From: a virus | DNA length: 46,328 nt | Direction: 5' to 3' (one strand) | IMG/VR virus record: IMGVR_UViG_3300042541_001972 | Span: 1-46,328 of that record | Shown here: positions 3,036-45,927 of the stretch, in pieces | Layout: every line of letters starts with the position of its first letter | How positions within the stretch are numbered: the first letter of the stretch is position 1 | The notes under the pieces: generated by a model | What the model was told of the DNA's origin: nothing | Databases searched by the model: none | What the model saw: the letters and a program-made list of their open reading frames with translations, nothing else | Made by a program: the position numbers and the translations under genes

Positions 3036-3059
3036 CCTAATTAAATCATAGAGTTACGA

Positions 3060-3683
3060 ATGGCGACAAAAACAAAGATTGCAGCCATCGTGAAAAACAA
3101 GGGCGGCGCTCCTAAAAAAGAAGTGTCGCTTGCAACATTGGCACAGCTTTGGGGACAGAGCATCCCCGCAGTTGCCAACGATTTAAAGCGTCTCGGATTG
3201 ACGATTGCTGGCGATGGCCTTGAGGCTTGCACCCGCGCAAAAATGCAGGCGCTGCGTGACACCGCGCGGGGCTATACATCTGCCAGTGGCGATGACATGC
3301 AAGCGCTGAAAGCTCGGGAAACCCAGACGCGCATTGAACTGAACGAACTGGAAATTGCAAAACAAAGCGGCCAGTTAATCAATGTCAGCCAGTTGGAGCC
3401 GATGCTCGCTGGCTTGGTTGTTGCTGCCAGAACAGAGTTTTTAGGCCGTGATGACAAACTAAAAGAGGAGATCGACCTGCTGTACTGCATTGATGTTGAC
3501 GTCGATCTCATCAAAAAGTACACAGAGGAATCACTTGAGCACATTGCCGGATACGCAACAGTCCTGTACGGATCTGATGCAGCGGATACTGAGCAAAGCC
3601 AAGCCGCCCCAGAAGATTTCGACGACGGAGTGGGCACGCAAGTTTCGCGGCCTAAGCGCGAAGTCAAGCGCAAAGCCGGGTAA
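3060..3683 (+). CDS. Terminase small subunit, Nu1-like
   Basis: 207 residues. Begins with a basic stretch, then a winged helix-turn-helix at about 20-50 (VSLATLAQLWGQSIPAVAND) for cos binding. Residues about 85-115 form a charged helix (LKARETQTRIELNELEIAKQ), then QLEPMLAGLVVAARTEFLG, the typical Nu1 layout of DNA-binding head, coiled dimer helix and C-terminal contact to the large subunit. It overlaps the large-subunit gene by 107 bases in another frame. Recognises viral DNA and loads the ATPase/nuclease for packaging. Confidence 0.85.
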   Translation: MATKTKIAAIVKNKGGAPKKEVSLATLAQLWGQSIPAVANDLKRLGLTIAGDGLEACTRAKMQALRDTARGYTSASGDDMQALKARETQTRIELNELEIAKQSGQLINVSQLEPMLAGLVVAARTEFLGRDDKLKEEIDLLYCIDVDVDLIKKYTEESLEHIAGYATVLYGSDAADTEQSQAAPEDFDDGVGTQVSRPKREVKRKAG

Positions 3684-11872: not shown

Positions 11873-13405
11873 ATGACTATCAGCTTCAATCACATGTCGC
11901 CTCAAATCGGCGTCCCCGGTCAACACGTTGAATTCGACAACAGCCGCGCGCTGCGTGGTCTGGGTCAAATCACTTGCCGCATTCTGGTGTTCGGTCAAAA
12001 GACCCCCGCCGGTACTGCAATCGCAGACGTACCAGTTCTAGTGCAACGCGAAGACCAAGCCAACATCCTTTTTGGCGACAAGTCCATCCTGGCTGACATG
12101 ATGCGCACCTTTTTCAAGGTCAATCCAGCCTTGGAAGCGTGGGTTGTGCCTCAAGCCGACAATGGCGCTGGCGTGGCTGCGACTGGCACATTTACCCTGA
12201 CTGGCACCGCTACTGCAGACGGAACCTTCAGTGCACTGGTAGCTGGCCGTCGCTATCAGGTGGGCGTCTCTGTGGGCGATACCGCCGCCGCTGTTGCCAC
12301 TGATCTGGCTGCTGAAATCAACGCCGATACGACCGCTACCGTGACCGCCGCTGCTGTTGGTGCTGTTGTCACTGTGACCGCCGTCAACAAAGGTGAACTG
12401 GGTAACGACATCGATCTGCGCGTCAACTACTACACGCAAAACGAGGCAACCCCTGCTGGTCTGGGCGTCGCCATCGTGCAAATGTCGGGTGGTTTGACCA
12501 ATCCAGTCATTACGGCCAGCCTTGCATCTTTGGTGGGTCAGCAGTACACCGACATCGTGTTCCCGTACACCGACGATGCAAACCTTGACTTGCTCGAAGC
12601 GGATATGGCACAGCGTTGGTTGCCAATGCCCGTGGCGTCCGACCTTGGGCCCGGTCAGAACGATTCGCACGTCTGGAGCGCAAAGCGTGGTTCTGAAACC
12701 ACCCTGGCAACTTACGCGCTAAACCGCAACAGCCCACACATCACCATGCTGGCCGTCGAAGGTGGCCGCACGATCAATGCCATCTACTACGGCGGTGTGC
12801 CAAATCCGACATGGCAAGTCGCAGCCGTTTATGGCGCGGTTGGCTCCTACTACAGCTGCAACAACCCAGCGACACCGTTGCAAAACCTTGAACTGACTTG
12901 CCTGTTGCCGGCCCCAGTTCAGTGCCGCTTTGCATGGTGGGAGCGCAACCGCCTGATTCTGAATCACGGCTTTGGCACCTACAGCTACACCAGTGATGAC
13001 CGTTTCCTGTTGGAGCGTGCAACCACGATGTACACCAAGAATGCGAACAACTTCAACGACAAGTCCTATATGGACACCGAGACGCTGAAAACACTGTCGT
13101 TTTTGCGCCTTGATTTCCGTCGCTGGGTGTCTCAGACCTTCCCGCGCCATCGTTTGAGCGCAGACGAAACCAACTACGGCCGTGGTCGAAACATCGTCAC
13201 ACCGGGCTCATTCCGTCGTGACCTGATTGGTTATGCCGGTGTCTGGCACGATGCTGGCTTGATCGAGGACTTGCCACAGTTTGGCCGTGACTTGATCGTG
13301 GCAATCGACGGCTCAGACTGCAACCGCCTGAACGTCAACCTGTTCCCGAACTTGGTCAACCAGTTCCGTGTGACCGCTGCCAAGATGTCATTCATTCTCT
13401 GCTAA
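11873..13405 (+). CDS. Tail sheath protein, Mu gpL-like
   Basis: 510 residues (Mu gpL about 495). Domain signs: N-terminal SFNHMSPQIGVPGQHVEFDN, an insertion rich in Thr/Ala/Val strands at about 100-190 (surface domain), a core LVGQQYTDIVFPYTDDANLD at 223-242 and the C-terminal conserved segment with SFLRLDFRRWVSQTFPRHRL and a final AKMSFIL. It builds the contractile outer tube. The sheath defines a myovirus. A terminator follows at 13425. Confidence 0.92.
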   Translation: MTISFNHMSPQIGVPGQHVEFDNSRALRGLGQITCRILVFGQKTPAGTAIADVPVLVQREDQANILFGDKSILADMMRTFFKVNPALEAWVVPQADNGAGVAATGTFTLTGTATADGTFSALVAGRRYQVGVSVGDTAAAVATDLAAEINADTTATVTAAAVGAVVTVTAVNKGELGNDIDLRVNYYTQNEATPAGLGVAIVQMSGGLTNPVITASLASLVGQQYTDIVFPYTDDANLDLLEADMAQRWLPMPVASDLGPGQNDSHVWSAKRGSETTLATYALNRNSPHITMLAVEGGRTINAIYYGGVPNPTWQVAAVYGAVGSYYSCNNPATPLQNLELTCLLPAPVQCRFAWWERNRLILNHGFGTYSYTSDDRFLLERATTMYTKNANNFNDKSYMDTETLKTLSFLRLDFRRWVSQTFPRHRLSADETNYGRGRNIVTPGSFRRDLIGYAGVWHDAGLIEDLPQFGRDLIVAIDGSDCNRLNVNLFPNLVNQFRVTAAKMSFILC

Positions 13406-13424
13406 GTCAGAACAACCCAAACAG

Positions 13425-13445
13425 ACCCGCCTAGTGCGGGTTTTC
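13425..13445 (+). terminator. Intrinsic terminator between sheath and tube genes
   Basis: ACCCGC (13425-13430), loop CTAGT, GCGGGT (13436-13441) with a short T run. Inside an operon that must be read through, it probably sets sheath above downstream dosage or is bypassed by antitermination. Confidence 0.6.
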
Positions 13446-29813: not shown

Positions 29814-30289
29814 TCGTCCAACTGCTAGCCCTGTTCAATCCGCTGAGCTGGCTGCAAAAGCTGGCCAGCATCGCCGCGTCGCTGCTGATTGTGTTTTTGC
29901 TCGGCTGGTGGTTCTGGTCTGCCCTGGGTAACCACTTCACCGAGAAGCAGGACGCCGAGTATGCGCGGGTGGAGCAGGTCGCCCGCGCCGCCAAACAACA
30001 GCGCGAAGCTGAAAATGAAGCTAAAACAAAAAAGGCTGAAAGTGAAAAAATCAAACAACTTGAAATCATTGCTGCCGATGCTGTGCGCCTGCGCGCTGCC
30101 AATAAGCGGCTGCAAAACGATCTACGTGCCGGAGCCACCGCCGAGACAGACCTCACCGCCTGCGTACAGCGAGCCCGTGCCCTCGATCACGTACAGCAGG
30201 CAGTACGAGGCTTTGCTGAACGCGTTGTCACAGCCTCAGACAAGCATGTCGCCGACAAAGTAGCGTGTACGGCGCAATGGCCGCAATGA
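29810..30289 (+). CDS. Inner-membrane spanin, Rz-like
   Basis: 159 residues, ATGA overlap with the lipoprotein gene. One N-terminal span about 18-38 (LASIAASLLIVFLLGWWFW), then a long charged coiled coil (about 45-110, KQQREAENEAKTKKAESEKI), then two cysteines at the C-terminal part. Classic Rz topology. Fuses inner and outer membranes together with Rz1, encoded in another frame inside this gene. Confidence 0.85.
   Translation: MIVQLLALFNPLSWLQKLASIAASLLIVFLLGWWFWSALGNHFTEKQDAEYARVEQVARAAKQQREAENEAKTKKAESEKIKQLEIIAADAVRLRAANKRLQNDLRAGATAETDLTACVQRARALDHVQQAVRGFAERVVTASDKHVADKVACTAQWPQ
30015..30263 (+). CDS. Outer-membrane spanin lipoprotein, Rz1-like, nested in Rz
   Basis: 82 residues in the +2 frame relative to Rz. 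Basic start MKLKQKRLKVKKSNNLKSLL, hydrophobic h-region and lipobox LPISGC with Cys33; the mature part starts KTIYVPEPPPRQTSPPAYSE and is Pro-rich, as Rz1 proteins are. ATG 30015 lies in a reasonable context (GCTGAAA upstream). Fully embedded Rz1 genes are known from lambda-type phages. Confidence 0.85.
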   Translation: MKLKQKRLKVKKSNNLKSLLPMLCACALPISGCKTIYVPEPPPRQTSPPAYSEPVPSITYSRQYEALLNALSQPQTSMSPTK

Positions 30290-30492
30290 GGGTCTGGTCT
30301 GCAAACTTGCTGGCCCCCAGCGGGGTACTGTATTCCGTGCGTTGGATCGGCACGGACGAAGAGCTACAAAGCTGGCAGGCGCTGGGCTTTGTGCCAATGA
30401 GCGCCGAAAAGGTGCTCGGCATTGATGTTTTGACCGAGGCCGCACTTGGAAAGTTGGCGTTTGCGCTGCTACCGGTCTCGGGGCGAGTGTGA
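30286..30492 (+). CDS. Hypothetical late protein, 3' end altered by mini-transposon
   Basis: 68 residues, ATG overlapping the Rz stop. Compact mixed sequence with VLYSVRWIGTDEELQSWQAL and LGIDVLTEAALGKLAFALLP. The stop TGA (30490-30492) is supplied by the inverted repeat of the element inserted at 30487/30488. Removing the element and one copy of the GCGAG duplication restores a frame ending ...SGRVLM-stop, so the original protein was 70 residues and the insertion cost only two residues. Function unknown. Confidence 0.6.
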   Translation: MRVWSANLLAPSGVLYSVRWIGTDEELQSWQALGFVPMSAEKVLGIDVLTEAALGKLAFALLPVSGRV

Positions 30493-30803
30493 ACAATTAG
30501 AAGTTATTGCGACAATACAACTCGTTTTAAGTGCTTTTATTCAGAAGTTAATGCGAAAATCTCTTCTAATTCAGGTACGTCACCAGTGAATCCTGCTCGC
30601 TCTAGCAGTTGCCATCCGAGCGCCCTTGTAGCCTCAGTTACGCGCAAAATATCTGCATCGCTGAGACTTGAACATGATGAGTAAACATCACACTCTAAAA
30701 GTCTTAGTCCACTTAACGCCGTGGCGATTTTTTTTGCTTGTTGCTTATTCATAAATAGTCGCATTAACTTCTAAACTGTCGCAATAACTTCTAATTGTTC
30801 ACA
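30488..30803. mobile_element. 316-bp mini-transposon (MITE-like, Tn7/Tn5053-type ends)
   Basis: Perfect 27-bp terminal inverted repeats at 30488-30514 and 30777-30803, beginning TGTGAACAATTAG, flanked by a 5-bp direct duplication GCGAG (30483-30487 and 30804-30808). Each end holds two copies of a 14-bp motif: AGAAGTTATTGCGA at 30499-30512 and inverted at 30779-30792, and AGAAGTTAATGCGA at 30543-30556 and inverted at 30759-30772. TGT...ACA tips, 5-bp duplication and multiple transposase-type sites at each end are the marks of Tn7/Tn5053-like elements. It carries one small reading frame and no transposase, so it must be moved in trans. Confidence 0.85.
30537..30752 (-). CDS. Small protein carried by the mini-transposon
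   Basis: 71 residues from ATG 30752; an ATG at 30764 inside the right-end repeat would add four. Helical and acidic: MNKQQAKKIATALSGLRLLE, DADILRVTEATRALGWQLLE, then GDVPELEEIFALTSE. Three cysteines near 20-27. No recognised family and no good ribosome site. It fills the element almost end to end and its stop lies before the inner left-end site, so it may be a true passenger, but a chance frame cannot be excluded. Confidence 0.5.
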   Translation of the reverse strand: MNKQQAKKIATALSGLRLLECDVYSSCSSLSDADILRVTEATRALGWQLLERAGFTGDVPELEEIFALTSE

Positions 30804-30828
30804 GCGAGTGTTGATGTAAGACTAGGGT

Positions 30829-31287
30829 TTAGTTTTTGTGTGCCCGTTCCAACCGGACGCGATAAATCCAGCCGTCGCCAGCATCGCGGCAGATCGCCCG
30901 CAGGCGCTTCAGCGCTTCTTCAAGGCCCCCCCCAGCCCCTACTGTGTCCAAGTCTGCCCGCAGTTTGTCAAGCACGGCCTGCCTTGCACCGTGATGCGTC
31001 AAGGTCGTCCAATGGGTCACCCCTGGTGCATTGGCGTGTCCTGGTGCGATTTTGGCGGGGTCACGGCGGTCAATTTGCAGCCCTTGGCCGTTGGGCGCGA
31101 GCCAACACTCCCCAGCTGGGGAGTAGCCTTGCGCCTCCAGCGCCAGCGCCCGTGCTTCGGATATGACCCCGCTCGGCCGTGGCTCCAGCCGGTACTCCAG
31201 CTGGGTGGGGTGGTGCGTGGCCAGCCCTGCGGGCATGTCAAAAGTCCAGTCGTCTGCACGCGCTTTCTTGCGCTTGGGCTTGGTCAT
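30829..31287 (-). CDS. Hypothetical cargo protein
   Basis: 152 residues, third gene of a leftward unit starting at 31804; its ATG overlaps the previous stop (ATGA). Basic start TKPKRKKARADDWTFDMPAG, a middle with WLAPNGQGLQIDRRDPAKIA and THWTTLTHHGARQAVLDKLR, basic end. No transmembrane span or recognised domain. Opposite strand to the late genes and next to attP, a usual place for genes expressed in the lysogen. Confidence 0.6.
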   Translation of the reverse strand: MTKPKRKKARADDWTFDMPAGLATHHPTQLEYRLEPRPSGVISEARALALEAQGYSPAGECWLAPNGQGLQIDRRDPAKIAPGHANAPGVTHWTTLTHHGARQAVLDKLRADLDTVGAGGGLEEALKRLRAICRDAGDGWIYRVRLERAHKN

Positions 31288-32616: not shown

Positions 32617-32659
32617 AAAGCTGTTATAGTTCAACAATGGGAATCCGTCCGCCGTTGGC

Positions 32660-32699
32660 GGTGGGACCATTTTCCTGACCTCACGAAAATGGTCCCACC
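32660..32699. repeat. Perfect 15-bp inverted repeat next to attP
   Basis: GGTGGGACCATTTTC (32660-32674) and GAAAATGGTCCCACC (32685-32699) around a 10-base spacer. No T run and no gene nearby. Outer bases (TTGG and CCAA, imperfectly spaced) may extend it. Confidence 0.7.
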
Positions 32700-32744
32700 A
32701 CCGACCAAGGCTGCTCAGCGCTGTGGGTGGGTCGTGGTGGGGGC

Positions 32745-42920: not shown

Positions 42921-43210
42921 GAGCGCACTCAGAAACCAGTCTTGAGGCCTATCACACCACGTCGGCGCGCACGCTTCAGGCCAGAGAGCAGCAACTGATG
43001 GCTGCATTTAAAGGGGCTGCTGACACCTTCACCCGCCAGGAACTTGTCGACGTCGTTGGCATGCCGCTGAACGCTGTTTGCGGTCGCGCCAACTCACTGG
43101 TAGCAAAAAAGGTGCTTTGTGTGCGCGGATTTGCCATCAACCCGGGCTCAGGTAAACGCCGAGAAAAGCTCGGTTTATTTATTCCTGAGCAGCTTGGACT
43201 ATTTCAATGA
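42917..43210 (+). CDS. Winged-helix early protein
   Basis: 97 residues, ATGA overlaps on both ends. Residues about 25-75 (QLMAAFKGAADTFTRQELVD, VVGMPLNAVCGRANSLVAKK) form a winged helix-turn-helix of the 'MarR-like, phage' kind; the end KLGLFIPEQLGLF resembles a clamp-binding QL-LF motif. Possibly a replication accessory protein, since it precedes the replication gene. Confidence 0.6.
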   Translation: MRAHSETSLEAYHTTSARTLQAREQQLMAAFKGAADTFTRQELVDVVGMPLNAVCGRANSLVAKKVLCVRGFAINPGSGKRREKLGLFIPEQLGLFQ

Positions 43211-44226
43211 ATTTCTACCAACGACATATTGGCGACTGGGTAACCGCAACTGCTCACTTATCAGAAGTTGAAGAGTGCATTTATTCGCGTTGCATTGACC
43301 AATATTACGCACGGGAAACCGCTTTGCCGCTTGATATTGAGCGCGTTTGTCGCTTGGTTCGAGCCTTAAGCAAAGACTCAAAAAAGGCCGTCGCGGTAAT
43401 TTTGGAAGAATTTTTTGTAAAAGGCGACGATGGCTGGCATCAAAAACGCTGTGATTTAGAGATCACTAAATTCAAAGAAGAAGAGCCACTGCGCCTGCAA
43501 AAAGAAGAAAACATCAAGGAGCGTAAGCGCCGGTTCAACGAGCGTAGGAAAACAATGTTTGACGCTCTCAGAGAGGCGAATATCGTGCCTGCTTGGGACA
43601 TCAAAATGCCTGAACTTGAGAGGCTATTTGAGCAGCATGTTACCCGTTCAAATCCTGAAACTGGAACGCAACCTAGAACGTCCAAGGAACGTCCAACGGA
43701 CAAAAACGGAACGACTAACCATACCCAAGAACCAATACCCAATAACCAATTAATTAATACAAACAATAACCCTCTCTCTAATCCTGGACCGCAAGAGGGG
43801 GGGGCAGTTGATGCAGAAAATCCAAAAACCACCCCAGCCGGTGAAATCTGCAAAGCGCTGAAATCCGCAGGACTGCAAAGCGTCAGCCCGAACCACCCCG
43901 AGTTGCTGGCGCTGATCGCCAAAGGCGTGACCCGAGAGCAATTCATCGAAGCGGCGCAGGCAGCCAACGGAAAGCGCAGCCCGTTCGCCTACATGCTCAC
44001 GGTCGTCAAAAGCCAACTGGCAGCAGCCAACGACATCGAAAAAGCACCCGGCATGCCCGATACGGCTTGGGATGAAACAGGCCGAACGATTCGCGCCAAA
44101 GCGGCCGAGTTGGGTTTTCCAGCATGGGAAGGCGACAACCCCAGCGGAACCAAACAACCCGAGCTTTTCTCGGCGTACACCGCACGGCTGCGCGAATTCA
44201 TCGAATCAAAGAAAGGCAAGTCATGA
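43207..44226 (+). CDS. DUF1376 phage replication initiator-like protein
   Basis: 339 residues. The N-terminal 90 residues match DUF1376: YQRHIGDWVTATAHLSEVEE, YSRCIDQYYARETALPLDIE, then HQKRCDLEITKF. A basic linker (KERKRRFNERRK), a low-complexity Asn/Pro/Thr region (about 155-200) and a C-terminal helical domain AGEICKALKSAGLQSVSPNH follow. The layout resembles lambda O: DNA-binding head, origin-containing linker, helicase-loader contact. The low-complexity part overlaps the iteron-like repeats at 43663-43775. Confidence 0.75.
   Translation: MNFYQRHIGDWVTATAHLSEVEECIYSRCIDQYYARETALPLDIERVCRLVRALSKDSKKAVAVILEEFFVKGDDGWHQKRCDLEITKFKEEEPLRLQKEENIKERKRRFNERRKTMFDALREANIVPAWDIKMPELERLFEQHVTRSNPETGTQPRTSKERPTDKNGTTNHTQEPIPNNQLINTNNNPLSNPGPQEGGAVDAENPKTTPAGEICKALKSAGLQSVSPNHPELLALIAKGVTREQFIEAAQAANGKRSPFAYMLTVVKSQLAAANDIEKAPGMPDTAWDETGRTIRAKAAELGFPAWEGDNPSGTKQPELFSAYTARLREFIESKKGKS
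43663..43775. other. Candidate replication origin inside the replication gene
   Basis: GGAACG or AGAACG words start at 43663, 43675, 43686 and 43708, that is at 12, 11 and 22 base steps, two of them within (A/G)GAACGTCCA. An AT-rich stretch (43738-43775, including CAATTAATTAATAC) follows. Iterons plus an AT-rich block within the initiator gene is the lambda ori pattern. Confidence 0.4.
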
Positions 44227-45278: not shown

Positions 45279-45703
45279 AGCGCAAAACCCACACCGTAAA
45301 GATCAACCCCGTGCTGCGCGCGGTCATCGCCGCCAAGTGGTCAAAAGAAAAGGTTCAAGCCCAGATTCAAGCCTACATGGGCGACGATGGTTTGCAGGTT
45401 GTTCACCAAGCCGGTCGTATTTTCTTCGTCGTGCTAATGGCCTTCATCGCCAACGGCATGTCCGACGAACACCCCGACGCCAGAATCCTGCGCGGTGCCG
45501 TCAATGCCCTGGAAGAACAGGCCGAGGTCGACCAAGTTGATGCCCACCGTCGCAATTCGTTGATTTCAGGGCTGAACGCAGCCATGCGACTGGTTGACGA
45601 AATACCCGCCGATCTGATCATTTCCAGCGCCCTGATCTTGGAGCAACGGCTCAAGGCTGGACACATTCACGCAATCGAATACAGAAAGGCTTTGGGACTA
45701 TGA
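45275..45703 (+). CDS. Conserved phage early protein A' (complete copy)
   Basis: 142 residues from ATG 45275, overlapping the previous stop. Basic start MKRKTHTVKINPVLRAVIAA, KWSKEKVQAQIQAYMGDDGL, a hydrophobic helix FFVVLMAFIAN and the segment shared with the left-edge copy. Its 45427-45516 stretch is identical to bases 1-90. The frame is directly coupled to B' without the two inserted genes seen at 274-1067. Function unknown. Confidence 0.7.
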   Translation: MKRKTHTVKINPVLRAVIAAKWSKEKVQAQIQAYMGDDGLQVVHQAGRIFFVVLMAFIANGMSDEHPDARILRGAVNALEEQAEVDQVDAHRRNSLISGLNAAMRLVDEIPADLIISSALILEQRLKAGHIHAIEYRKALGL

Positions 45704-45927
45704 CCGTTTTTGATTCGCACCTCTACCGCGACCCGATGCAAGTGCTTGAAGCCAAACAGAACGCCGCCGAGCGTAAAGCGAAGCAATGCGGGGATTGTGT
45801 TCACAAGGTTTCGGTCACTTTCAAGGGCGAGACCGCCAATCGTTGCACCCAGAAGTGGCAGATTTACGGCCGGCGCTGTGACCATTACGAGCAAAAACAA
45901 AATTTAAAACCAAAAGGAGACCTATGA
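45700..45927 (+). CDS. Small Cys-rich phage protein B' (paralogue of 1064-1288)
   Basis: 75 residues, ATGA overlaps. VLEAKQNAAERKAKQCGDCV is identical to the left copy, and C-x2-C...C...C plus CDHYEQ is conserved. The ends differ. About two thirds of residues match by eye. Confidence 0.7.
   Translation: MTVFDSHLYRDPMQVLEAKQNAAERKAKQCGDCVHKVSVTFKGETANRCTQKWQIYGRRCDHYEQKQNLKPKGDL

Follow-up and report, generated by a model that had tools for sequence, protein, structure and literature searches.

A 316-bp insert at positions 30488-30803 of a virus record (the window, that is, the whole 46,328 bases analysed) has inverted repeats at its tips and a short duplication on either side. This locus raises the question of what kind of element was inserted, from which family its ends derive and by which route it could have entered phage DNA.

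Structure of the insert

Both direct reading and a repeat search showed that the two arms of the insert are complementary at 27 of 27 positions; no other perfect inverted repeat in the window reaches 22 nt (Table 1). The 14-mer AGAAGTTAWTGCGA is present in four exact copies in the window, all within the insert, two at each end and facing inwards; when up to two mismatches were allowed, five matches were obtained against 0.36 expected, a number reached in none of 100 shuffles. The perfect 27-bp ends, the flanking GCGAG and the two 14-bp sites per end given in a preliminary description of this DNA were exact. As the tips are perfect and the duplication is intact, these features suggest that the insertion is recent. 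The G+C content of the insert is 40%, compared with 54% for the window, and tnsA, tnsB, tnsC and tniQ are absent from it, an ORF of 75 codons being its sole content.

Other repeats were observed elsewhere in the window. Imperfect direct repeats occur between the ends of the record (1-277 and 45427-45703, 86%; 1085-1251 and 45724-45890, 81%), a 25-bp hairpin with 88% complementarity and a 2-nt loop lies between leftward genes at 32654-32705, and a 30-bp inverted repeat (43151-43180 and 44152-44181, 87%) encloses about 1 kb.

Table 1. Features of the mini-element and its insertion site in the window, and the full elements with related ends
Feature	Position	Strand	Basis or remark
Interrupted last gene of the late/lysis cluster	30286..30492	+	...SGRV-stop with the insert; ...SGRVLM-stop without it
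Target-site duplication, left copy GCGAG	30483..30487		Sequence
Left terminal inverted repeat, 27 nt, TGT tip	30488..30514	+	Repeat search
Left outermost putative TnsB-type site	30499-30512		Motif search; within left terminal inverted repeat
Passenger ORF	30537..30764	-	75 codons from ATG 30764, or 70 from ATG 30749; occupies the stretch between the inner sites
Left inner putative TnsB-type site	30543..30556	+	44 bp from outer site; tnsA-side architecture
Right inner putative TnsB-type site	30759..30772	-	20 bp from outer site; lipA-side architecture
Right terminal inverted repeat, 27 nt, TGT tip	30777..30803	-	Repeat search
Right outermost putative TnsB-type site	30779-30792		Motif search; within right terminal inverted repeat
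Target-site duplication, right copy GCGAG	30804..30808		Sequence
Full element, Polaromonas MAG	29151-72218		43 kb between facing ends, one contig; duplication ATTGC
Full element, Polynucleobacter	C28:139747-179842		40 kb between facing ends, one contig; duplication ACAAT

Full elements with the same ends

A scan of about 85,000 species genomes for the end pattern TGTNAANNNTNAGAAGTTAWTGCGA gave six matches in four genomes, all of them betaproteobacterial (a Polaromonas MAG, Rhodoferax sp. U11-2br, Polynucleobacter sp. JS-Safj-400b-B2 and an uncultured betaproteobacterium MAG); by our own estimate, about one chance match is expected for a pattern of this length. In the Polaromonas MAG and in Polynucleobacter, facing ends enclose full elements, towards one end of which tnsA, tnsB, tnsC and tniQ lie, as identified by domains of TnsA (PF08722 and PF08721), TnsB (Mu-transpos_C and rve), TnsC/TniB (E 1e-63) and TniQ (E 3e-32). 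The other end carries a protein of 552-595 aa that belongs to no known family. In five of the six cases, this end, which we call lipA-side, adjoins lipA (lipoyl synthase) at its 3' end, the exception being locus L039. A genus search around the Rhodoferax genome added two further genomes, with tips nearer to those of the window (TGTGAACAA-); in one of them, G478, the end lies away from lipA, indicating that full elements too can sit elsewhere. Within the family, TnsB is 60-69% identical across genera and 96% identical between Polynucleobacter and the MAG.

Burkholderiales were thereby seen to carry a Tn7-like family of about 40 kb, inserted where lipA has its 3' end (loci L005/L024-L026, L007/L031, L008/L027-L029, L009 and L038). 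The Polynucleobacter element (L027-L029) contains two tnsABC-tniQ sets, with TnsB proteins 39% identical, and two proteins of the 554-aa type, as if two elements were stacked at lipA. The main texts of PMC10293859, PMC8649781 and PMC11406308 do not name lipA as a Tn7 site, and a literature search (supplements and subscription papers lying outside it) returned neither a lipA-linked Tn7-like transposon nor a Tn7-like MITE.

Assignment of the mini-element

In the full elements, the sites of the tnsA-side end lie at offsets 11 and 54/55, with a further site at 76/77, and those of the lipA-side end at 11 and 31, in some also at 53. The mini-element has offsets of 11/55 on the left and 11/31 on the right, and hence one end of each kind, without the third, innermost sites. 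The right end is 88% identical over 50 nt to the lipA-side end of the MAG (E 3e-12) and the left end 75% identical over 69 nt to the tnsA-side end of Polynucleobacter (E 3e-6), the likeness taking in the stretch between the sites. TGT tips with AGAAGTTAWTGCGA-type sites, the asymmetric spacing (43-44 bp on one side and 20 bp on the other) and a 5-bp duplication (GCGAG here, ATTGC and ACAAT in the full elements) are all shared with the lipA family. Insertion at the 3' end of lipA is not shared; it is a habit of the full elements and is not required of a derivative. On these sequence comparisons, the ends can be assigned with confidence to the Tn7-like family of Burkholderiales, and there is strong evidence that the mini-element arose from a full member, either losing the interior or being assembled from the two ends.

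Having no tnsB, tnsC or tniQ of its own, the mini-element is not an autonomous Tn7-like transposon. The preliminary description had proposed a non-autonomous miniature with ends of the Tn7 superfamily, which is supported, and had suggested looking for a full element with the same ends and transposase genes; such elements exist and carry tnsA beside tnsB, tnsC and tniQ. Its wider attribution to Tn7/Tn5053-like (TnsB/TniA) elements holds for the Tn7-like half only. As the full relatives possess TnsA, the family is Tn7-like with TnsA, and membership in the Tn5053/Tn402 family, whose parents have TniA without TnsA, was rejected.

Further copies and alternative origins

Further copies were sought, a check that had also been proposed beforehand, and no second mini-element was found in the virus contigs, genome contigs or relatives searched. 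Candidates were examined and rejected: the IMG/VR match L004 was a chance match within a coding region, L052-L056 and L061 were other short repeats or chance, and a decayed copy at Polaromonas C23:61428, like other matches with two to three mismatches, had no partner end. At 13160-13440 of the virus contig L055, near the end of the stretch examined, AAGTTAGTGGGACA is repeated many times in direct and inverted orientation, possibly as a transposon end or an origin.

One further candidate, L057, was rejected as a copy because it is a tandem array without transposon tips: at 3046-3109 of this virus contig, after a primase-like gene, site-like copies of AGAAGTTAGTGCGATTATTTACT follow one another with a 23-bp period. 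An array of related motifs in such a position lends something to the notion that the 14-bp sites in the window are a phage replication or regulatory array, inverted by chance. However, this notion fails on the TGT tips, which L057 lacks, on the 5-bp duplication and on the matching site offsets at both ends, and the existence of tnsABC elements with the same ends speaks decisively against it; we regard it as extremely improbable.

The mini-element is short, has terminal inverted repeats, lacks a transposase and has relatives that could supply one, all of which are features of MITEs. MITEs also occur in several copies, and the mini-element is single across everything searched; multiplication, their usual mark, therefore lacks support here. 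The absence of a second copy also accords with a different history, in which the phage or prophage received a full element of tens of kb whose inner part was later deleted, for instance because the genome had outgrown the capsid, and nothing ever moved as a mini-element. An insert of 40 kb could hardly be packaged by a phage of about 46 kb, so that only internal deletions would survive as virus, and a single sequence fits a mobile mini-element and a one-off deletion alike. However, the two 27-bp tips are identical, whereas in the full elements found the two ends differ from each other, and nothing in those elements matches the inner part of the insert. Such a one-off deletion thus appears rather improbable to us.

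We consider it likely that the insert is a natural, non-autonomous, MITE-like miniature of the Burkholderiales Tn7-like family that was moved in trans by the machinery of a full relative. As it has no tns gene of its own, its movement must, we infer, have been in trans.

Insertion site and passenger ORF

The mini-element interrupts the last codons of a small gene closing a rightward lysis cluster (holin, GH19-type endolysin and Rz-like spanin), and the product of this gene matched no PHROG or Pfam family. The insertion point is a convergent junction with leftward genes, an integrase among them, and the leftward operon beyond the mini-element ends at 30829. When the flanks are joined at a single GCGAG, the gene reads ...GRVLM-stop and so loses only two codons by the insertion, in agreement with the empty site reconstructed in the preliminary description. 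The same description had placed the element with its passenger inside the late operon; in fact, the element lies at the 3' end of that operon, and the ORF is antisense to it and points the same way as the leftward operon beyond. A related phage with a single GCGAG at an empty site, also proposed as a check, was sought by neighbouring-protein and DNA searches, which found no close relative. No known host carries both the phage and a full element.

The passenger ORF, described beforehand as a small gene, is indeed present with 70 or 75 codons, but is no more than a candidate gene: no homologue was found in Pfam, NCBIfam, PHROGs, PADLOC, PDB, phages, IMG/VR or 399 Burkholderiales genomes, a search of plasmids gave only one weak match (E 0.02), and about 7% of shuffles yield an ORF of at least 70 codons. 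The ORF could represent a gene or a remnant, or have arisen by accident. As an addition to the trans-mobilised miniature preferred above, the ends may have served as the vehicle of a protein of 70-75 aa useful to the phage or its host, such as a regulator or an immunity or counter-defence factor. The way in which the ORF fills the space between the sites, its alignment with the leftward operon and its codon-position G+C (0.53/0.43/0.32, the pattern of genes in a low-G+C genome) point in this direction, as does a structure model with three helices. However, the confidence of that model is low (pLDDT 67), no promoter-like site was found near the ORF, and the missing homologues and the length of chance ORFs weigh on the same side; a useful cargo is therefore possible but doubtful.

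A possible route into phage DNA

In Tn7, TnsB-type transposases bind arrays of sites, TnsA and TnsB cut, and TnsC with a selector picks the target (PMC10293859). By analogy, in a bacterial cell carrying a full element, the mini-element, reduced to one end from the tnsA side and one from the lipA side, with tnsA, tnsB, tnsC and tniQ lost, would be bound by TnsB at its four 14-bp sites and excised by TnsA and TnsB; TnsC and a target selector would then direct it into phage DNA, where a staggered 5-bp cut, once filled in, would leave the GCGAG duplication.

The lipA route was rejected for this insertion, as the flanks show no likeness to lipA ends, and the phage flanks were no more lipA-like than shuffles. 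As the insertion lies in phage DNA that does not resemble lipA, it probably came about by a route other than lipA homing, possibly a mobile-element route. TnsE takes Tn7 and Tn6022 to mobile DNA; that of Tn6022 is very divergent, and its gene lies close to one of the ends and well away from the core genes (PMC10293859). The 554-aa protein of the full elements occupies a comparable position, and a Pseudomonas aeruginosa plasmid with tnsA/tnsB-like genes encodes, about 50 kb from them, a protein distantly related to it. A classical TnsE was rejected for the 552-595-aa protein, which had no Pfam TnsE_C match, no PDB sequence match and no usable structure model (pLDDT 32); only its position suggests that it might be related to the TnsE of Tn6022 (PMC10293859). 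A broader proposal would be that natural Tn7-like miniatures are a class of elements that board phages by the mobile-element targeting route of full Tn7-like transposons, with a small cargo gene that benefits phage or host. We think this unlikely; if it were true, phages would serve Tn7-type transposition both as targets and as vehicles.

Comparison with known systems

Research on Tn7-like transposons, among them those associated with CRISPR, asks how short their ends can be and how targets are chosen. A natural element of 316 bp with one end of each kind hints at the minimal ends that suffice in nature and places a Tn7-type insertion inside a phage, and its relatives point to a lipA-linked family not named in the main texts examined.

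The mini-element resembles Tn5053/Tn402 elements (TniA/TniB/TniQ) in its TGT tips, 5-bp duplication and repeated end sites; these, unlike its own full relatives, are without TnsA. In mini-Tn7 laboratory vectors, two Tn7 ends surround a cargo and the Tns proteins are supplied in trans. The ends-only design around a cargo is the same, but these vectors are engineered, whereas the phage mini-element is natural, belongs to another family and is much shorter. The TIMEs, Tn3-derived inverted-repeat miniature elements (PMC4133298), are likewise miniature and non-autonomous, keep the ends of a large transposon, generate a 5-bp duplication and are mobilised in trans; however, their ends are those of the Tn3 family, recognised by TnpA, and their transposition is replicative, whereas the mini-element has the repeated TnsB-type sites of a Tn7-like family. 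With Tn7 and Tn6022 of Acinetobacter, it shares TGT tips, a 5-bp duplication, several TnsB-type sites per end and a spacing that is unequal between the ends, and its full relatives likewise have tns genes and occupy the 3' end of a conserved gene. It differs from them in its length of 316 bp, in having no tns gene and in lying in phage DNA, and the target gene of its family is lipA, whereas that of Tn7 is glmS and that of Tn6022 is comM.
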